Assembly: GCA_020344415.1 (NCBI GenBank) | Contig: CP070825.1 | Span: forward strand, 3,094,991 to 3,158,990 | Reading direction: 5' to 3' | Source of the DNA: Candidatus Aminicenantota bacterium | GTDB taxonomy: Bacteria > Acidobacteriota > Aminicenantia > Aminicenantales > Aminicenantaceae | DNA: 64,000 bases | In this document: positions 11,010-58,540 of the stretch, piece after piece | Numbering within the stretch: position 1 is the stretch's first letter | Layout of the letters: the number at the start of each line of letters is the position of its first letter | The notes under the pieces: generated by a model | Told to the model about the DNA's origin: nothing | Databases searched by the model: none | Seen by the model: only the letters and a program-made list of their open reading frames with translations | Program-made: the position numbers and the translations under genes

Positions 11010-11122
11010 TAGGGGCTTGATTTATTTTATGTAAGGGCTTGATTTATCAGACCCACCTGCCTCTTAATGTAGGGGTTTGATTTATCAAACCCACCTGCCG
11101 AAAAAGGGGACAGTCCCCTTTT
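11010..11122. repeat. Three GGGCTTGAT-type palindromes and a GGGGACAGTCCCC hairpin
   Basis: Degraded copies of the GGGCTTGAT/ATCAAGCCC palindrome occur around 11013, 11035-11058 and 11073-11098, followed directly by AAAAAGGGGACAGTCCCC (11101-11118) and a T-rich run. The same hairpin recurs at 51474-51528. This accounts for most of the gap between the terminator and the next gene. Confidence 0.65.
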
Positions 11123-11229
11123 CCCTTTTTTTCTTGACCGCGCATTTGTGAGGCGCTATTATAGAAAACTTATAATAATTATAGAAATTCATTTGATCTT
11201 TTGAAAAGACAAATCCTGAAAGGAGTCTA

Positions 11230-49990: not shown

Positions 49991-50119
49991 TTTTTTATGT
50001 AAACAGCTATCGTTTTTTTATCCCGCTTTCATTGTTGAAGGCAAAATCGAAGAAAAGGAAAAATTTCATGTTCGTTTCCTCCTTCCCAAATCTTGTGAAT
50101 TCATATATATTTGGCATAC

Positions 50120-51475
50120 ATGGCTTCGACAAAAATCACTGACGCTGAACTTTTTAGGAAAGCAGAGAAAATATACAGGGCTGCCTTGTCAGAAGTTGTT
50201 CCAGAGAATCTTATCAAAAAAAATGTTTCTGTTCACGAAGAGAAACTGATTGTTCAAGATAGAAGTTTTGATCTAAGAAGGTTTGATAATATTTATTTAG
50301 TGGCGATCGGAAAGGCAGCGCCTTTCATGGCTAAAGGCCTCAGGGCTGTCCTCAAGGATAGAATTAAAGAGGGAATTGCCCTTTATCTCCCCCAAAACAA
50401 GATAGCCTTGAAGAACATTACCGCTCTGCCTGCTTCCCATCCTCTTCCTGATGAAAGAAGTTTCCAAGCCGCCCAAAGAATTCTTAACCTCGCAACAAAA
50501 TTAAGAGAAAAGGACCTTATGTTTGTACTTATATCAGGAGGCGGTTCTGCCCAAATCAGCCTTCCAGCCTCTGGAATTTCACTTGAAGAAAAAAGGGTAA
50601 TAACCGATAGGCTTCTTTTGGCAGGAGCAGATATAACAGAGCTTAATACTGTTCGAAAGCACCTCTCCAGGATCAAGGGGGGACGTTTGGCACAAGAGGC
50701 CTTCCCAGCAACAGTAATCAGCCTAGTTATTTCAGATGTTCGTGGGAATGATTTGGAGAATATTGCTTCTGGTCCGACCCATTGGGATTCGTCAACCTAC
50801 GGAGATGCTTTTCAGGTGTTGAAAAAATATAATCTCTGGGACAGAGCCCCGGCTTCCATAAGAACTGTCATTAAGAGTGGGGTGCGGAATAAAATCCAGG
50901 AAACAGTAAAGAGGGAAGCCCCCATTTTCAAACAAATTCATAACATAATAATCGGTGATAATCTTGAAGCGTTGAGAACGGCCAAAGGGGAGGCAGAGAA
51001 ACTCGGTTTTCGAAGTTTTATCCTCACTTCTTCAGATCACGGGGAAGCCAGGAAAGTTGCCCAAAATTATGTCTCTCTTTTCTTAAATGTTCTCGAATCA
51101 GAAAAGGCTACTTCCCGGCCCTTGTGCCTTTTAGCAGGAGGGGAGCTAACTGTCACAGTGAAAGGAAAAGGAAAGGGAGGTCGAAACCAGGAATTTGCAT
51201 TAGCTTCTTTGATAGAAATGAAAAAGTCGCTTCGAGGAGAAGCAAAATGGTTGATATTAAGCATTGGAACAGATGGCATTGACGGTCCCACAGATGCAGC
51301 AGGTGCCTGGATTACGCCTTCAATCCTGGAGACTATACAGGGATTATTTCTCGACCCTATTCAGTATCTCAATAATAATGATTCATATAATTTTTTTAAA
51401 AAAGTCGGCAGATTAATTCTCACTGGGCCCACCCATACCAATGTCATGGATCTCCGCCTCTTCTTGATTGAATAA
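50120..51475 (+). CDS. Glycerate 2-kinase (DUF4147 plus MOFRL domains)
   Basis: About 451 residues. The N-terminal DUF4147 domain contains VAIGKAAPFMAKGL, ASHPLPDERS, FVLISGGGSAQISLPASGISLEEKRVITDRLL and NTVRKHLSRIKGGRLA. The C-terminal MOFRL domain contains GGRNQEFALAS, SIGTDGIDGPTDAAGAW and TGPTHTNVMDL. This is the GckA/GarK-II-type kinase that makes 2-phosphoglycerate from glycerate. The ATG at 50120 has no Shine-Dalgarno; a TTG lies 9 bp upstream. It ends in a GGGGACAGTCCCC hairpin that may terminate transcription. Confidence 0.92.
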   Translation: MASTKITDAELFRKAEKIYRAALSEVVPENLIKKNVSVHEEKLIVQDRSFDLRRFDNIYLVAIGKAAPFMAKGLRAVLKDRIKEGIALYLPQNKIALKNITALPASHPLPDERSFQAAQRILNLATKLREKDLMFVLISGGGSAQISLPASGISLEEKRVITDRLLLAGADITELNTVRKHLSRIKGGRLAQEAFPATVISLVISDVRGNDLENIASGPTHWDSSTYGDAFQVLKKYNLWDRAPASIRTVIKSGVRNKIQETVKREAPIFKQIHNIIIGDNLEALRTAKGEAEKLGFRSFILTSSDHGEARKVAQNYVSLFLNVLESEKATSRPLCLLAGGELTVTVKGKGKGGRNQEFALASLIEMKKSLRGEAKWLILSIGTDGIDGPTDAAGAWITPSILETIQGLFLDPIQYLNNNDSYNFFKKVGRLILTGPTHTNVMDLRLFLIE

Positions 51476-51528
51476 AAAGGGGACAGTCCCCTTTTTTCCA
51501 TTGTAAAAAAGGGACAGTCCCCTTTTTT
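51474..51528. repeat. Two GGGGACAGTCCCC hairpins with A/T flanks, possible terminators
   Basis: AAAAAGGGGACAGTCCCC with a run of six T (51474-51497) and a near-identical second unit (51505-51528) each form a 6-bp GC stem extended by A-T pairs. The first starts inside the glycerate kinase stop codon. The same hairpin is present at 11101-11118. Confidence 0.7.
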
Positions 51529-51539
51529 CCAAAAGCCAC

Positions 51540-51870
51540 GATAGCTGAAGTGATTTTGGAAATCTCTGAAGCAACCTTGAAGATTTAGCCTTCCCGAGCT
51601 GTCTTTCGAAGGGACCCGGCGAAGTCGGGCGCCGAGGATATTTGAGAAAGCTCAGGCCAGTGGGCTCAGAAAACACGCAACTTTTGCCCCAGCGAGTCAA
51701 AAGCTGCTCGGTTTCAGGCTTCGCTCTCCTCTTCGAGGAACCATGCCCGCTCAGCCTTCAAACGGTTTTTTTCACCCACTGCCCTTCACTTATCTAGCGA
51801 GGAGGACAGTGAGGGAATGGCGTTAAAAATCTGAAGGGAGCAGGAAGATTTCCGAAATCATGGCTCTATC
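51540..51870. other. ~330-bp structured repeat element, copy 1 (candidate ncRNA or folded mobile element)
   Basis: The ends TGATTTTGGAAATC (51551-51564) and GATTTCCGAAATCA (51847-51860) form a 14-bp stem with one G-T pair; GATAG/CTATC extends it. The interior contains a GCAACTTTTG/CAAAAGCTGC stem (51677-51715), a TCCTC-TTC-GAGGA hairpin and the tract CGGTTTTTTTCACCCACTGC. The core from about 51670 to 51785 is almost identical to that of copy 2 at 58200-58325. No coding potential is convincing on either strand. Confidence 0.7.
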
Positions 51871-51966
51871 AATAAAATTGAGATGTTTACTGTTACAAAA
51901 AAGAGATTGCATCTTCAACTCCTACTTCTTAAAATTATAAGTTATATCAAGCGAGGAGGTGTCTCG

Positions 51967-53163
51967 ATGCCTGCTGTAGAAATCAAACCGGATGTTTTTT
52001 GGGTTGGAGTCAATGATAGAACCACCGATCTTTTTGAAGGCATATGGCCTATCACAAAGGAAGGTGTCTCATACAATTCATATCTCATTGATGATGAAAA
52101 AAAGGCGATCATAGATCTTACAAAGTCAATCAAAGGAGATGAATTTCTTGCTCAGATCGACGAAGTTGCCGATATTTCAAAGATTGATTATATAATCGTG
52201 AATCACATGGAACCAGATCATTCAGGACTTTTGAGGACATTTAGAAGGATTGCTCCTCAGGCAACTATCCTGGGATCGGCGAAAACAAAAGATATGCTGG
52301 AAAGCTTTTTTTCTATAAAAGATAATGTTCAGGTTGTTAATGACGGAGATACACTCTCTTTGGGGAAGAAGACGCTGAAGTTTTTTTCTACACCTTTTCT
52401 CCATTGGCCTGAGACAATAATGACCTACGAGGCTTCTCATAAGATTCTCTTCGCCTGCGATGCTTTCGGAAGCTATGGCGCCATCCGCGGCTCCATTTTT
52501 GATGACGAATGTGAGCACTTCGATTTTTATCAGAAAGAAGCTCTCCGCTACTATGTAAACATTGTGGCTAATTACAGTACACGGGTATTGAGAGCCATAG
52601 AGAAGCTCTCCGGCATTCCTGTTGAGGTTATTGCCCCCTCTCATGGTCTTATCTGGCGAAAAAACATTTCACTTATCGTCAACCTCTATAAAAAGTGGGC
52701 TGAATATGCGAGCGGGGATACCGAACCAGGAATAACCCTTATTTACGGCTCTATGTATGGTAATACAGAGGTCATGATGAATGCAGTAGCCCAGGGGATT
52801 TCCCGGACGGGAGTTCCCCTTGAGATTTTTGATGGATCCCGAACACATTCCAGCTACATTCTTCCCTCTCTATGGACAAAGAGAGGAGTCATAGTAGGAG
52901 CCTCTACTTATGAAGTCTCCCTCTTTCCTCCGGTCGCAGAGGTCTTAAACATGGCCGCGCAAAAACATATCAAGAATAAAAAGGCTGCTTTTTTCGGAAG
53001 CTATGGATGGAGCGGTGGAGCACTGAAAGGATTGAAGAGGATCATCGAACCGCTGAAATGGGATCTTGCAAATACTTTAGAATTTGTCGGGTCCCCCACA
53101 GGAGAAGAACTCAAGAAGGGAGAGAGATTCGGAGCCAGTTTTGCAGAATTGATAAAGAAGTAG
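51967..53163 (+). CDS. fprA: FprA-type A flavoprotein (flavodiiron oxygen/NO reductase)
   Basis: 398 residues. The ATG at 51967 follows GAGGAGG and is preferred over one 84 bp upstream. The N-terminal metallo-beta-lactamase-like domain (about 1-245) carries the diiron ligand motif HMEPDHSG plus further histidine/aspartate ligands in HWPETIM, CDAFG and PSHGLIW. The flavodoxin domain (about 250-398) has the FMN loop IYGSMYGNTEVM. No rubredoxin domain is fused. It reduces O2 to water or NO to N2O and is typical of anaerobes that meet occasional oxygen. Confidence 0.94.
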   Translation: MPAVEIKPDVFWVGVNDRTTDLFEGIWPITKEGVSYNSYLIDDEKKAIIDLTKSIKGDEFLAQIDEVADISKIDYIIVNHMEPDHSGLLRTFRRIAPQATILGSAKTKDMLESFFSIKDNVQVVNDGDTLSLGKKTLKFFSTPFLHWPETIMTYEASHKILFACDAFGSYGAIRGSIFDDECEHFDFYQKEALRYYVNIVANYSTRVLRAIEKLSGIPVEVIAPSHGLIWRKNISLIVNLYKKWAEYASGDTEPGITLIYGSMYGNTEVMMNAVAQGISRTGVPLEIFDGSRTHSSYILPSLWTKRGVIVGASTYEVSLFPPVAEVLNMAAQKHIKNKKAAFFGSYGWSGGALKGLKRIIEPLKWDLANTLEFVGSPTGEELKKGERFGASFAELIKK

Positions 53164-53202
53164 ACCTCGTTTGCGTTTGGTTTTTTCCATCATAAAGAAA
53201 AG

Positions 53203-54144
53203 ATGAAATCTATACTTTTATTTCGACTTGGGGGTTTGGGGGACATGTTGGTAGCCTTCCCTTCAATTTATCTCGTCCGAAAAAAGCTCTCCCCGTGTTC
53301 TATCACTCTGGTCTGCCGGGAGGAGTATGGATCGATCCTGAAAGAAACTGGCATTGTGGATGATCTTATTTCTGAAGGTGATGTTAATCTTGCTCCTCTT
53401 TTTGCAGGTTCTGTTCGTCTTGATGGAACCCTTGTCAGGTGGCTGGAGGGCTTTTCTATAATTTTGGGTTGGATGCAGAAAAAAAGCAGTATGCAAATAA
53501 CAAAGAGCCTTCTTTTTCAAAACAGAAAGGGCATTCGCTTTTTTGTTTTTGATCCCGCCTATCCAGGCCCGATAAGCAAGTTTTTTTTTGAAAAAACCGC
53601 CGAATTTTTGAAAGGAGATGAACCAGTTAACTTCAATGAGTGCAGCAGTCTGCCCTTCAGCCTTAAACAGAAGCAGGATGGCCTAGGACTTCTTGGGAGA
53701 AGAGCTTTAAAGCAAAACAAGCAGATTCTGGTCGTTCACCCGGGAAGTGGGAATACAGAGAAGTGTTGGCCTATTCACAATTTTATCAGGATAATCACTC
53801 AATTAGGCCAGAAAAGAATTAGAGGAGCATTAGTCACTGGAATGGCTGAAGAGAAGATAGAAGATGTCATTGAAAAGGCTCAATTGCCTGAGGGTTGGAC
53901 TTGGCTTCGAAATCCACCTCTTTTGAAACTTGCAGAGCTGCTTTCATCAACGGACTTTTATCTTGGAAATGATTCGGGTGTGACGCATCTTGCAGCCGCC
54001 TGCGGGACAAATGGTGTAGCTCTTTTTCGAAAAGATTTGGCAGACAAGTGGAGACCTTACGGCCGTGTTTCTGTTCTCAACGGAGAGTCCATCTCTGATA
54101 TAAAATTTGACTCTGTTTGGGAGGCTGTAGCAAATCCAGGATAA
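53203..54144 (+). CDS. GT9-family ADP-heptose:LPS heptosyltransferase
   Basis: 313 residues, GT-B fold. The N-terminal motif LLFRLGGLGDMLVAFPSIYLVRKK is the acceptor-side loop. The C-terminal nucleotide-sugar side has VVHPGSGNTEKCWPIHNFIRI and YLGNDSGVTHLAAACGTNGVALF, the signature of the family. It should add heptose to the lipid A-linked core using ADP-heptose made through RfaE2. It lies 39 bp after fprA, probably in the same transcript by chance of orientation. Confidence 0.9.
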   Translation: MKSILLFRLGGLGDMLVAFPSIYLVRKKLSPCSITLVCREEYGSILKETGIVDDLISEGDVNLAPLFAGSVRLDGTLVRWLEGFSIILGWMQKKSSMQITKSLLFQNRKGIRFFVFDPAYPGPISKFFFEKTAEFLKGDEPVNFNECSSLPFSLKQKQDGLGLLGRRALKQNKQILVVHPGSGNTEKCWPIHNFIRIITQLGQKRIRGALVTGMAEEKIEDVIEKAQLPEGWTWLRNPPLLKLAELLSSTDFYLGNDSGVTHLAAACGTNGVALFRKDLADKWRPYGRVSVLNGESISDIKFDSVWEAVANPG

Positions 54145-54171
54145 GGCCTGAACTGTCAATTATACTCAAGT

Positions 54172-54237
54172 AATAAAAACCTGAACGGAGCAGAGGGATT
54201 TCCAAAATCATGCTTTTCTCACGAAAATTGAGATGCT
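54172..54237. repeat. Partial third copy: right end of the ~330-bp element
   Basis: TAAAAACCTGAACGGAGCAG and GGATTTCCAAAATCATG, followed by AAAATTGAGATGCTTGC, match the right end and downstream flank of copy 1 (51826-51888) at roughly four of five positions. No left arm or core is present. The conserved AAAATTGAGATG supplies the -35 element of the next promoter. Confidence 0.6.
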
Positions 54238-54256
54238 TGCGATCCTGTTGTATAAT
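54228..54256 (+). promoter_or_regulatory. Promoter of the unknown gene at 54315
   Basis: TTGAGA (54228-54233) and TATAAT (54251-54256) are 17 nt apart. The -35 element lies in the repeat-derived tail. Confidence 0.65.
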
Positions 54257-54314
54257 CGATTTATTGAGGAAAATGTGTTAAGATACCTGAGGTGCCCGTA
54301 GCAAGAGGTGGAAT

Positions 54315-54770
54315 ATGGTCAAGAATGATTGGAGAGAGGCTTTAAAAAATTTTTTCGAAGACCTCAGCATCCTTGAAGAATCCAAGAAGGAAACAGTCCA
54401 AAATTTTCATCAGTTTTGTGAATTTATTGCTGAGCCTGCTTTTGAAACATTGAATCAAGAGTTCAAGCAATACGGCATAAAATCTCAGTTTCAACGGTCA
54501 AAGGGGAAAGCAATTTCTTTTAAGATAAACTTCTCAAAATCAAAAGTAGATAATTTCACCTATATTATTCGCCTTCCCGAAAACTCCTTCAAGCTCAAGT
54601 TGAAGCTTGTTGTTAGAGGCAGGAGAAGCAAAAAAAGTCAGATTGAGGAAAGAGAAATGCCTTTTATGGAGAATGTTGATCCTGATGATATTTTGAAATT
54701 GTCCCAGGAGGAACTTATCAAAGACGTTATCGAGAAATATAAGAATTTCAATTACGATGCTCTTGTCTAG
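54315..54770 (+). CDS. Conserved-looking protein of unknown function
   Basis: 151 residues, soluble. Helical N-terminal part (ALKNFFEDLSILEESKKETVQNFHQFCEFIAEPAFETLNQEFKQYG) followed by a strand-rich part (KAISFKINFSKSKVDNFTYIIRLP, FKLKLKLVVRGRRSKKSQIEER) and an acidic helical tail. No catalytic motif is evident and I do not recognise the family. AGAGGTGG 3-7 nt upstream of the ATG and a good promoter indicate that it is a real, independently transcribed gene. The 190 bp after it hold nothing recognisable. Confidence 0.7.
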   Translation: MVKNDWREALKNFFEDLSILEESKKETVQNFHQFCEFIAEPAFETLNQEFKQYGIKSQFQRSKGKAISFKINFSKSKVDNFTYIIRLPENSFKLKLKLVVRGRRSKKSQIEEREMPFMENVDPDDILKLSQEELIKDVIEKYKNFNYDALV

Positions 54771-54961
54771 CCCGTGTGAAAATAAATAATAGCCTCGCCA
54801 GACCAATCAATTAATCTTTTTTGTCCTTCTTTCATGAATTCTTCCTTTTTCCATTAGGCTCATTTTTTATTTTCATCAGAGGTGAGTTGAGTGGAAAGTC
54901 TTCCTAGATATGAATTAAGGGATTGAAAGCGACTCACAAATTTGTTACCTTCTGTTTCTTT

Positions 54962-56134
54962 ATGATGAACAAAAAAAGATTGCCTCCGGGAATATTGCCC
55001 ATCCAATTTCTGATCTTGATGTCTTACTCCTCCCTTGCCATTTTGGCGCTCCTTCCTCTTTTTTTTGAACATCTGGGTGGGAATCGTCGCGAAATCGGAT
55101 TTTTGGTAGGACTTTTTTCATTGGCTGCCTTCTTTTCCCGCCCTTTCGCTGGTTGGCTCTTGAGCAAATACTGCCCTAGAAAAGTCCTTATAGGAAGATT
55201 TGTTCTTATTTTAAGCATGACCACGCTGTATCTCCTTATCAATAGCCTGAACTGGTTTGTTGTTTTCATAAGGATCTTTCACGGCATCGGTTTTTCCATT
55301 GCTGTCCTGGCAGCCCTGTTAATAGTCGTTTTAAAAGTGGGCAGGGAAGAGAGAGCCTATGCGATCGGTGTTGTTTCCACAGGTTTTATGCTTCCTCTTC
55401 TCGTTGTGCCGTATATTGGAGAAGTGATTATTGAGAGAATGGGCTTTTTTTACTTTTTTCTCTCTGCCATTGCACTAGTTGCGATTCCCTTTTTTTATGC
55501 CATTTTTAAAAAAATAAGCGTTCCCCAATTTTCCGAAGACCCCTCAGTCCAGAGTACAGGCTTTTTTCGCCTTCTGGGACGAAAGAAGATATTCCTGATT
55601 TTTTCTCTGACGTTCATTTTTGAGGTCGCACTCAGCTCCAGCATCAGTTTTGTTCCTCTTCTTGTACACGAGCATTCCTCGATGAGAGCCGGCTATTATT
55701 ATACTTTTATTGGTTTATCTACTGTTTTCATGCGACTCTATGCGGGGAGAAAGCTCAAATTCTGGGGAAGCCCGATGCTCATTCTTCCGGCCTTCTGTTT
55801 TCTTTCAGGAGGGGGAGTGTTGATTTATTTGTCTTACAATAATTTTCTTCTTGCCATCTCTGGGCTTATCAGCGGGATAGGTGTAGGCATACTTTATCCT
55901 CATCTATCTGCTATGGTAGTGGAGGGAATTGCTTCCAGTGAAAAAGGGAAAGTCTTGAGCCTTTTTGCTTCTTCTGTAGATTTAGGTTTTGCCATGGGTC
56001 CTATCGCCTTTGGCTGGATATCTCAAGCTCTTGAACTAAGGATTACTTTTGTTCTCTTTGCCCTGTTTGCCTTCCTCTCTTCTTTTCTCCTGATTGTATG
56101 GGGAAGATCTGAGTTGTTTGAAAGGAAAGATTGA
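54962..56134 (+). CDS. Major facilitator superfamily transporter
   Basis: About 390 residues with twelve hydrophobic segments. Start is uncertain: two adjacent ATGs (54962, 54965) or an upstream TTG, none with a good Shine-Dalgarno. The loop between spans 2 and 3 reads FSRPFAGWLLSKYCPRKVLIGR, the MFS motif-A position, and the protein has the usual internal repeat. It resembles drug/sugar efflux MFS proteins of the YfcJ/AraJ kind. The substrate is unknown. Confidence 0.85.
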   Translation: MMNKKRLPPGILPIQFLILMSYSSLAILALLPLFFEHLGGNRREIGFLVGLFSLAAFFSRPFAGWLLSKYCPRKVLIGRFVLILSMTTLYLLINSLNWFVVFIRIFHGIGFSIAVLAALLIVVLKVGREERAYAIGVVSTGFMLPLLVVPYIGEVIIERMGFFYFFLSAIALVAIPFFYAIFKKISVPQFSEDPSVQSTGFFRLLGRKKIFLIFSLTFIFEVALSSSISFVPLLVHEHSSMRAGYYYTFIGLSTVFMRLYAGRKLKFWGSPMLILPAFCFLSGGGVLIYLSYNNFLLAISGLISGIGVGILYPHLSAMVVEGIASSEKGKVLSLFASSVDLGFAMGPIAFGWISQALELRITFVLFALFAFLSSFLLIVWGRSELFERKD

Positions 56135-56156
56135 AATTAAAGTTGGGTTAAAGAGA

Positions 56157-57104
56157 TTAAAATTTCCAGATGAGGCGCAACTTTTCCTGTTTATCCAAAC
56201 GCATGATCCCTTCTTTCTTTGCTGCTTCTATGGCTTCATTAAATTCGTTGGTGGTAATTCTTCTGGATAGAGGTGATTTTGGGTCAATACTGCCGCACGG
56301 ATGATATTGGTCCATGATGTTAACATAAGTATTCTTCGAGATTTCTGATGCCAAGAAATGCATCACCTCCTTCGTTCCAGCTGATTCTTGTGGAAGGACA
56401 AGGTGTCTCACTAGGAGTCCTCTCAAGGCGATCCCTTTCTCATCGATAATGAGGTCTCCAACCTGGCGATGCATCTCCTTGAAGGCGAGCCTTGCGACTG
56501 GGGGATAATCAGGCGCTTGAGAGTATGTTTGAGCAACTTCGGAACTGTTGTATTTGAAATCAGGCATGTAAATGTCAAAGACACCATCTAGAAGTTTAAG
56601 AGTTTCTACTGAATCATAACCGCCTGTGTTGTAAACGAGTGGTACGGAGAGCCCTTTGTCTATGGCTAAAACCAGGGCCTTCAGGATTTGGGGAACATAA
56701 TGAGTAGGCGTTACGAAGTTGATGTTGTGGCAGCCGATTTTTTGAAGCTCAATCATCATCTTGCCGAGTCTTTCAAAAGAAACTTCCTGGCCTTCTCCCA
56801 GATGGCTGATCGAGTAATTCTGACAAAAAAGGCATCTTATATTACAGTGAGTCATGAAAATAGTCCCAGAGCCGTGAAATCCTACCAAAGGTCTTTCTTC
56901 TCCAAAATGAGGTGAATAAGAAGAAACCTCAAGAAGATAACCTGCTTTACAGACTCCCCTTTCTCCCCCGAGGCGATTTACGCCACAGTTGCGAGGGCAC
57001 AGAGAACATTTCTTGAGCATCTGGAAGGCCTTCTCGACTTTCTCAGCGAAAAGGCCGGTTTTGAAGGTCTGGATGTAGACAGGTTCAAATTCATTTTTTG
57101 ACAT
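56157..57104 (-). CDS. Radical SAM protein, PflA-like (AmmeMemoRadiSam-type)
   Basis: About 315 residues. An N-terminal cysteine cluster (LKKCSLCPRNCGVNRLGGERGVC) precedes the radical SAM motif THCNIRCLFCQNY (CxxxCxxC, about residue 90) and a TIM-like barrel with GGYDSVETLKLLDGVFDIYMPDFKY. It resembles proteins annotated as pyruvate-formate-lyase activating enzyme-related. The ATG at 57104 is chosen over a TTG at 57113 because an extended -10 (TGCTATAAT) ends 11 nt before it, leaving no room for a leader. Divergent from the YfiH gene. The substrate is unknown. Confidence 0.86.
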   Translation of the reverse strand: MSKNEFEPVYIQTFKTGLFAEKVEKAFQMLKKCSLCPRNCGVNRLGGERGVCKAGYLLEVSSYSPHFGEERPLVGFHGSGTIFMTHCNIRCLFCQNYSISHLGEGQEVSFERLGKMMIELQKIGCHNINFVTPTHYVPQILKALVLAIDKGLSVPLVYNTGGYDSVETLKLLDGVFDIYMPDFKYNSSEVAQTYSQAPDYPPVARLAFKEMHRQVGDLIIDEKGIALRGLLVRHLVLPQESAGTKEVMHFLASEISKNTYVNIMDQYHPCGSIDPKSPLSRRITTNEFNEAIEAAKKEGIMRLDKQEKLRLIWKF

Positions 57105-57115
57105 TTTTCGCAATG

Positions 57116-57124
57116 ATTATAGCA
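57116..57124 (-). promoter_or_regulatory. Extended -10 promoter of the radical SAM gene, apparently leaderless
   Basis: TGCTATAAT on the minus strand (57124-57116) is a perfect extended -10 with no good -35 element. It lies 11 nt before the ATG at 57104. Confidence 0.5.
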
Positions 57125-57153
57125 ACATTTGTTCCAAAAGAGCAAAAGGCAAT

Positions 57154-57330
57154 GGGGTCAGGCTTTCATAAGTTTCATAACTCTATTAATTTTGAATTCA
57201 TGCTTTATCATATAGGCGTCTAGGAAATCAAAGATAGAATAATTTCTCTTTTTGAGGGCTAGGTATGCCCCAATTAATAGGCAAATATGCTGATAAACTC
57301 AAGTTATAAAAGTTATGAAAGCCTGACCCC
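57154..57330. mobile_element. MITE-like inverted-repeat element, copy A3 (177 bp)
   Basis: GGGGTCAGGCTTTCATAAGT on the left and AGTTATGAAAGCCTGACCCC on the right match the ends of copies A1 and A2, with a different, longer A/T-rich interior. It separates the divergent radical SAM and YfiH genes. Confidence 0.75.
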
Positions 57331-57340
57331 AAAGAAAGGC

Positions 57341-57369
57341 TTGAATTCTTAGGAGACAATATATATAAA
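57341..57369 (+). promoter_or_regulatory. Promoter of the YfiH gene, apparently leaderless
   Basis: TTGAAT (57341-57346) and TATAAA (57364-57369) are 17 nt apart. The ATG at 57382 is 12 nt beyond, without a Shine-Dalgarno. Confidence 0.55.
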
Positions 57370-57381
57370 GTCATATAACAG

Positions 57382-58086
57382 ATGACTGAAACAAAACAAA
57401 ATAATTTTATTACCATTCCTCAACTAGAAAACATTTCTTTCCTCATCCAAGGCTTCGGAACAGAAAGATGGAAAGAGGAGGATTTTAAAAGAAGGCCAGA
57501 GTGGAAGAATTTTAGACTTCTATTCCTTGATCAGATTCATTCAGATGTGATTCAATCCATAGATGAGATTCCTAGAGGTAATTTAAAAGGGGATGCCATG
57601 GTCACAAGCCTTTCTTCCCTTTTCCTCATCATCAGGACGGCTGATTGTCTTCCTGCACTCATTGTGAGTCAATCGCCAAAAGTCATTGCTGCTGTCCACT
57701 GTGGCCGGAGGGGAACCTGCAAGCGAGTCGTTCAGCGCGCCATCCATAGGATGATAGATCATTATGGTTGTGACCCATCAGTACTTCTTGTGGCTTTAGG
57801 TCCTTTGATAGGAAGCAGATGCTATGAGGTCGGAGAAGATGTGCTTATGAGCTTCGAAAAAGATGGTCATTCTACTGAATCCTTTCAAAATCATCCTACT
57901 CATGAGGGAAAGTACCTCTTTGATTTAAAAGAGGCCAATATATCCCAGATGCTCAATCTGGGGATTAAAAAAGATAATATTTTTTCCGTTGACATCTGTA
58001 CTCACTGCCATAGAGACTTCGCTTCATATAGACGGGATAAGGATAAAGCGAGCAGAGTTTTGAGTTTTATTGGTATGAAAGGATAA
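57382..58086 (+). CDS. YfiH/LACC1-family multicopper-oxidase-like / purine nucleoside phosphorylase
   Basis: 234 residues, usual length. The family signatures are in place: GDAMVTSLSSLFLIIRTADCLPALI and AAVHCGRRGTCKRVVQRAI contain the cysteine and histidine of the metal/purine site, and GPLIGSRCYEVGEDV and DICTHCHRDFASYRRDK complete it. Members act on purine nucleosides and were formerly called polyphenol oxidases; YfiH is also linked to peptidoglycan precursor editing. It is monocistronic between repeat elements. Confidence 0.88.
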   Translation: MTETKQNNFITIPQLENISFLIQGFGTERWKEEDFKRRPEWKNFRLLFLDQIHSDVIQSIDEIPRGNLKGDAMVTSLSSLFLIIRTADCLPALIVSQSPKVIAAVHCGRRGTCKRVVQRAIHRMIDHYGCDPSVLLVALGPLIGSRCYEVGEDVLMSFEKDGHSTESFQNHPTHEGKYLFDLKEANISQMLNLGIKKDNIFSVDICTHCHRDFASYRRDKDKASRVLSFIGMKG

Positions 58087-58088
58087 AA

Positions 58089-58400
58089 GGACCAGGGTAA
58101 TGTCGGAGCGACATTGAAGATTTAACCTTTCGGAGCCGTTCTTCGAGGGAATCAGGCGAAGACGGACACCGAGTATGTCTGAGCGGGGCTCAGGCCAGTG
58201 CGTTCCGAAAACACGCAACTTTTGCCCCAGCGAGTCAAAAGTTGCTCGGTTTCAGGCTTCGCTCTCCTCTTCGAGGAACCATGCCCGCTCAGCCCTCAAA
58301 CGGTTTTTTTCACCCACTGCCCTTCGCCTATCGGCTGGAAAAATTGGGGGAGGGAATGGCGTGAAAAATCTGAACTAGAGCGGAGACATTACCCTGCTCC
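58089..58400. other. ~310-bp structured repeat element, copy 2 (candidate ncRNA or folded mobile element)
   Basis: The ends GGACCAGGGTAATGTC (58089-58104) and GACATTACCCTGCTCC (58385-58400) pair at 15 of 16 positions. They share no sequence with the terminal stem of copy 1, although both form the same kind of stem. The core (about 58200-58325) is nearly identical to copy 1 and includes a perfect GCAACTTTTG/CAAAAGTTGC stem, the TCCTC-TTC-GAGGA hairpin and CACCCACTGCCC. It follows the YfiH stop by only a few bases. From 58401 to 58434 nothing is seen. Confidence 0.7.
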
Positions 58401-58434
58401 TTATGGTGATTTTATTTAATCCCATTACTTTGGG

Positions 58435-58507
58435 ATAACCTTAATTTATTAAGTCCACATGTTTATTTTTTTACATAGGAGGTGGGCTTGATGAATCAAG
58501 CCCCTAC
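58435..58507. repeat. Two facing copies of the GGGCTTGAT palindrome
   Basis: CCTTAATTTATTAAGTCCAC (about 58439-58458) and GGTGGGCTTGATGAATCAAG followed by CCCC (58481-58504) are oriented towards each other, so the pair could fold into one larger hairpin. Downstream is only T-rich DNA up to the purC promoter. Confidence 0.65.
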
Positions 58508-58540
58508 AGTTTTAAAAAAAGCAGTCTGCCCCCTTTTTTG

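Follow-up and report, generated by a model that had tools for sequence, protein, structure and literature searches.

The window, a stretch of 64,000 nucleotides (G000:C1:3094991-3158990) in a genome of 4.43 Mb that forms a single contig, carries two related elements that contain no gene, as a first-pass annotation of the sequence had said. That annotation placed the copies at 51540-51870 and 58089-58400. Both are present there; their full extent had been drawn too narrowly, as the arms run wider, to about the limits given in Table 1. The terminal stems that it described, TGATTTTGGAAATC with GATTTCCGAAATCA in copy 1 and GGACCAGGGTAATGTC with GACATTACCCTGCTCC in copy 2, exist and pair; the mispairs in these stems are one U-G and one mismatch. 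The block common to both copies comprises 145 nt at 95% (51650-51794 and 58188-58332), preceded upstream by 77 nt more at 77%. The near-identical 115-125 bp that had been reported corresponds to a domain designated module B.

Table 1. Features of the two elements and of related sequences in the window (positions in the window).
Feature	Position	Strand	Basis
Two GGGGACAGTCCCC hairpin repeats	51474..51527		abut copy 1, replace its left end
Copy 1, composite T1-type MITE (A core, B module in tip)	51527..51890	+	arms match T1 elements having 9-bp duplications
Copy 1 inner terminal stem, 5' strand	51551..51564	+	pairs with 51847-51860
Copy 1, core A 5' half	51554..51649	+	profile E=1.1e-26; R1 48.1 bits
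Copy 1, module B	51648..51786	- (folded strand)	profile E=5e-37, + reading; A-C > G-U on +
Copy 1, core A 3' half	51798..51858	+	profile E=3.5e-12
Copy 1 inner terminal stem, 3' strand	51847..51860	+	pairs with 51551-51564
Remnant, 3' end of T1-A element (core end, inner stem strand, T1 right arm)	54174..54240	+	65 nt with 80% identity to copy 1
Copy 2, composite T2-type element	58083..58442	+	full-length T2 relative L003
Copy 2 inner terminal stem, 5' strand	58089..58104	+	pairs with 58385-58400
Copy 2, core A 5' half	58094..58191	+	profile E=4.5e-23
Copy 2, module B	58187..58325	- (folded strand)	profile E=1.5e-36, + reading
Copy 2, core A 3' half	58347..58396	+	profile E=2e-9
Copy 2 inner terminal stem, 3' strand	58385..58400	+	pairs with 58089-58104

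Both window copies are decayed composites of a conserved core, core A, the tip of which has been swapped for module B. The right end of copy 1 is intact (51879-51890) and its outermost left end has been lost to a GGGGACAGTCCCC hairpin repeat, a type of junction that was also found at locus L008. In copy 2, the right arm (ATCCCATTACTTTGGGATAAC) is intact and the left one is cut short where the upstream ORF (57382-58086) has its stop codon. One end of each copy is thus damaged, and neither has a clean target duplication of its own. In the remnant between them, the core profile matches 54174-54208 and the T1 end lies at 54218-54240.

The first-pass annotation had counted two copies only. This count was wrong: 65 matching stretches were found in the window's own genome, far more than chance would give, and they belong to a dispersed, order-wide family. 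Homologues were collected in related genomes by using R1, a model of core A. R1 gave 39 core A matches in the window's genome and detected core A in 31 of the 41 genomes searched (own genome included), with up to 57 copies elsewhere. DNA queries detected module B in 28 and core A in 41 of 60 genomes, again with the own genome included. When an even sample of 149 genomes from the phylum was searched with strict filters, only four had matches, all from the same order; among the genomes sampled, the family is confined to one bacterial order, which is Candidatus Aminicenantes by protein matches. The ORF at 50111-51475 of the window has its nearest match in that group, to which the source organism is accordingly taken to belong. 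No match to the elements was found in the plasmids, phages and viral contigs searched. Rfam gave no match over the elements at the gathering threshold in the window, nor at lenient thresholds for the window copies (E<=5) and ten loci of relatives (E<=1); neither HEARO, which had been named as a candidate, nor any other family was thus matched.

From the outside inwards, the elements consist of inverted ends, a terminal stem of 15-20 bp, the multi-helix core A and an exchangeable tip. The sequence of the terminal stem is variable and its pairing is always kept. The 5' half of core A reads GCGACATTGAAGATTTAGCC...CGCCGAG and the 3' half GCCGAGAAGG...GGAATGGCGTTAAAAATCTGAA..GGAGC; its tip is a short loop, a domain of ~75 nt or module B, which was also found alone, closed by a terminal stem of its own. 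Composites of A and B occur in another genus too (L118 and L248, both in genome G010), which suggests that the composite is a stable type of long standing. Conserved tandem G.A steps, known from sequence alone as readings of the alignments, are present in core A (UUC-GA-GG / CC-GA-GAA, for example) and on the minus strand of module B (GGCU-GA-GC / GC-GA-AGCC).

The terminal stems sit inside true transposon ends, and most elements continue into longer inverted arms, which pair in all 58 cores examined. Four recurrent end families carry the same core, namely T1 (GGAAGCATCTCCAAATCCGTGAT), T2 (GGCTTTGTCCCAAAGTGACGGGAT), T3 (GGTTCTCTTCCATATTGTGTGG) and T4 (GGCTCATCACAATAATGAGTA); 24 of 79 cores could be assigned to none of them. 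T1 ends were present in 39 of 60 genomes, and a reversed control pattern gave no match. In the 60 elements with paired T1 ends, about 95-395 bp separate the two ends, in a search that allowed for up to 420 bp. T1 ends also carry module B and another cargo, type C.

The earlier proposal that the elements are mobile was borne out by target-site duplications. T1 elements are flanked by a duplication of 9 bp (6.12 of 9 bases matched in 60 elements, against 2.48 +/- 0.19 after permutation) and T2-T4 elements by one of 8 bp (5.83 of 8 in 23 elements, against 2.88 +/- 0.30; 0/5000), the ninth base being at chance in the latter. A solo T2 hairpin (L211) was considered as an empty site and rejected: it has kept remnants of the core and is a deletion product. 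Long inverted ends together with duplications of 8 or 9 bp point to a DDE transposase.

An autonomous partner was identified for T3. Loci L311 and L315 hold complete insertion sequences of the ISL3 family (~1,330 bp), each with an ORF of 416 aa that matches DDE_Tnp_ISL3, with GGTTCTCTTCCATATTGTGTGGGTAAT at both ends (T3 ends) and with perfect 8-bp duplications. The T3 ends of the family are nearly identical to those of the complete ISL3 element, which implies that T3-ended members were moved in trans. A T4-like end lies near an ISL3 gene at L318. No autonomous partner was found for T1 or T2; for T1 it was sought through the proteins beside its ends, and no recurring protein was found beside unpaired T1 ends. 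By inspection, T1 ends look like those of IS1, and assignment to an IS1-type element was rejected, as no IS1 transposase exceeded the threshold in 60 relatives. The elements thus have inverted ends, target duplications, a short length without a transposase gene and, for T3, an autonomous partner: they are non-autonomous DDE-type transposons (MITEs) moved in trans. Core A was looked for within the ISL3 elements and none was found; the core is therefore cargo, not a remnant of an ISL3 element.

The history of the ends is in part independent of that of the core. A tree was built from 69 cores, of which 48 had an end that could be assigned; 10 changes are required to explain the end labels on it, where 3 would be the minimum and shuffled labels gave a mean of 19.5. 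Branches with good support require two or more changes for each of T1, T2 and T3. The core was likely joined repeatedly to different ends; as the tree rests on only 127 columns and has few supported forks, the number of such events is loose. At somewhat less than even chances, we propose that the core is a portable selfish RNA cargo, which would have been re-ended several times with the ends of unrelated transposases (an 8-bp ISL3 type and a 9-bp type), the stem sequence being renewed and its pairing kept because the RNA aids spread or tolerance.

The claim that covariation reveals selection on folding, made originally from two copies, is strongly supported across the family. In the model alignment of core A (26 cores), two-sided changes are seen in 31 of 48 pairs and 89.9% of cells are paired, against 37-48% with the partners slid. 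A second set of 37 core A matches, mostly sequences outside the model (families f2 and f6 included; a few rows are also model members), was aligned by fitting to the R1 model; here, 36 of 48 pairs change on both sides and 91.4% of cells are paired, against 42-50%. Module B has 44 pairs, of which 31 differ on both sides, with 85.7% paired against 37-50%. When the inner terminal stems of 79 elements were paired, strands of one element scored 32.4 on average and strands of different elements far lower, at 15.2, which generalises the remark on the stems of the two window copies.

Dyads that are kept only as double-stranded DNA should show G-U and A-C equally. On the plus strand of core A, 60 G-U were counted against 7 A-C (p=1e-11), and in the second set 52 against 13 with two misaligned helices omitted (p=1e-6; 55 against 37 in the core helices before that omission); the cells of such pair counts are not independent events, and the p values are optimistic. 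The terminal stems of the 79 elements have 76 G-U against 38 A-C. Module B, in the plus reading, has 15 G-U against 41 A-C (p=7e-4, with the same optimism), and its folded strand is therefore the minus strand. Folding of A on the plus strand and of B on the minus strand explains the conflicting wobble clues in the first-pass annotation, where the inner stem favoured the minus and the outer stem the plus strand; both were right, the inner stem being B and the outer A. Selection acts on the fold, and for the most part on one strand.

Taken as a whole, the two window copies are likely to be decayed composite MITEs with a conserved fold under selection, acting probably as RNA. Elements of the family have transposed as DNA by way of ends that transposases recognise, the T3 members by implication in trans through the ISL3 transposase, and the core would act as RNA when the element or neighbouring genes are transcribed. 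Most likely, the folded core would form a rigid structure that is handled by a host protein or RNase; such handling could make insertions tolerable or useful in cis, so that copies persist. A role of the RNA in cis, within transcripts, has close to an even chance and is favoured by comparison with BOX elements and with Correia elements, the latter being substrates of RNase III; it is somewhat unlikely that the core takes part in, or controls, the transposition of the element itself. The upstream neighbour of core A points away from it in 47 of 68 cases, only a modest bias (p=0.002, uncorrected, from simple ORF calls).

Several other readings were weighed against selection for an RNA fold. If these were plain MITEs, young copies whose two ends derive from one transposase site, their pairing would need no selection on folding. 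The inverted ends are indeed long, target duplications do occur, and transcripts of MITEs generally fold (PMC10969869), but the internal core helices covary across families without being part of the transposon ends, the motifs in the loops are conserved, and the excess of G-U over A-C on one strand is not expected of double-stranded palindromes; this very improbable reading is largely refuted. It is quite unlikely that selection acts on single-stranded DNA, one strand of which would fold and be bound by a protein while the DNA is replicated or transferred. G-T wobbles and tandem G.A pairs form in single-stranded DNA as well, so that the asymmetry fits and the strand test alone does not separate it from RNA; the ends and the 8/9-bp duplications, however, indicate double-stranded DDE transposition, and copies in the window's genome lie on both strands with no evident regional bias (judged by eye only).

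Elements of the IS200/605 type lack long inverted ends with target duplications. A folded single-stranded mobile DNA, which the first-pass annotation had listed, is accordingly not supported in the form of an IS200/605-type element, since such an element should have neither inverted ends nor a target duplication and both were found here. The other listed candidate, a standalone HEARO/omega-RNA-like guide RNA of an IscB/TnpB system, would account for elements that are high-copy, structured and without a gene of their own; with no HEARO match at lenient Rfam thresholds, long inverted DDE-type ends with target duplications and no common protein beside T1 ends, it is hardly tenable. A cis-regulatory RNA that the host had domesticated, similar to a riboswitch and later spread by transposons, would suit the distant family G041, where cores in low copy number, with no clear transposon ends, are found in sense orientation upstream of purC-like and accB-like genes (names read from translations). 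Elsewhere, however, neighbours differ, orientation is mixed and there are many copies per genome, which leaves this origin improbable.

MITEs of bacteria are generally regarded as transposon shells without content. In the present family, the hundreds of copies in one order have conserved one-strand helices and tandem G.A loops while their ends change, so that selection of a bacterial transposon for the RNA that it carries becomes directly testable; the two covarying folds, A and B, lie outside Rfam and provide sequences enough for structure work.

Modular MITEs that fold when transcribed are a known kind, and BOX elements are the nearest. These pneumococcal and streptococcal elements are non-autonomous, dispersed and modular and are predicted to fold if transcribed; their outer modules form a stem, their inner modules are exchangeable and, in S. 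suis, two outer pairs (AC and EF) flank the same boxB modules (PMC3049150). The present elements share this organisation and differ in having four or more end families, duplications of two lengths, an order-wide range, strand-resolved covariation of the core and, for one end family, a partner among ISL3 elements. In Neisseria, the Correia/NEMIS MITEs are likewise small, high-copy inverted-repeat transposons, and their transcripts fold and are cut by RNase III (PMC10969869); they are known for folding through their inverted ends, whereas a conserved multi-helix core with internal-loop motifs lies here inside variable stems. ISL3 insertion sequences and their MITEs share the near-identical T3 ends and 8-bp duplications, but core A is absent from the ISL3 element. 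HEARO/omega-RNAs are also multi-copy, structured and RNA-like without a gene of their own, but the present elements match no such model and have DDE-type ends. No description of these elements was found in the open-licence literature searched. Within Rfam and that literature, what is new is the folds A and B themselves, their order-wide, strand-resolved conservation and their being common to ends of two duplication classes.

In copy 1, one of the two worn composite MITEs of the window, and in the relative locus L008, the place of the left transposon end is taken by GGGGACAGTCCCC hairpin repeats. These repeats are also contained in the tip of the type C elements, another cargo (GTCAGGCAAGCTGATGAGGAAGTC...) found within T1 ends at L173, L178, L182, L188 and L197; the motif GAGCGGGCATGGTTCCTC..GAGGAGAGCGA is common to this cargo and the minus strand of module B, the fold in the tip of core A. 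The L211 hairpin retains remnants only of the core and is the product of an internal deletion.

Coordinates of repeats, small elements and low-copy cores
Feature	Sequence	Positions	Remarks
GGGGACAGTCCCC hairpin repeats	window	51474-51527, 11101-11123, 58516-58538	
Further small palindromic element	window	57153-57331	30-bp inverted arms (TGGGGTCAGGCTTTCATAAGTTTCATAACT)
Hairpin, ~100 nt	L211	1500-1602	T2 ends
Low-copy core A, distant family f6	L216	1501-1681	
Low-copy core A, distant family f6	L219	1501-1681	

The stop codon of ORF 57382-58086 falls where copy 2 has its shortened left arm (58083-58104), and the insertion may therefore have contributed the 3' end of this gene. The arms of the palindromic element are 93% complementary and spaced by 119 nt; a similar string adjoins L006. 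A lenient Rfam search returned a sub-threshold lysine riboswitch match (53812-53948; 24.8 bits vs. gathering 30), which falls within ORF 53203-54144 and is probably due to chance.

Both f6 cores lack clear transposon ends and are situated in sense orientation upstream of genes whose translations were read as purC-like and accB-like; they may hint at a function that is either ancestral or domesticated.
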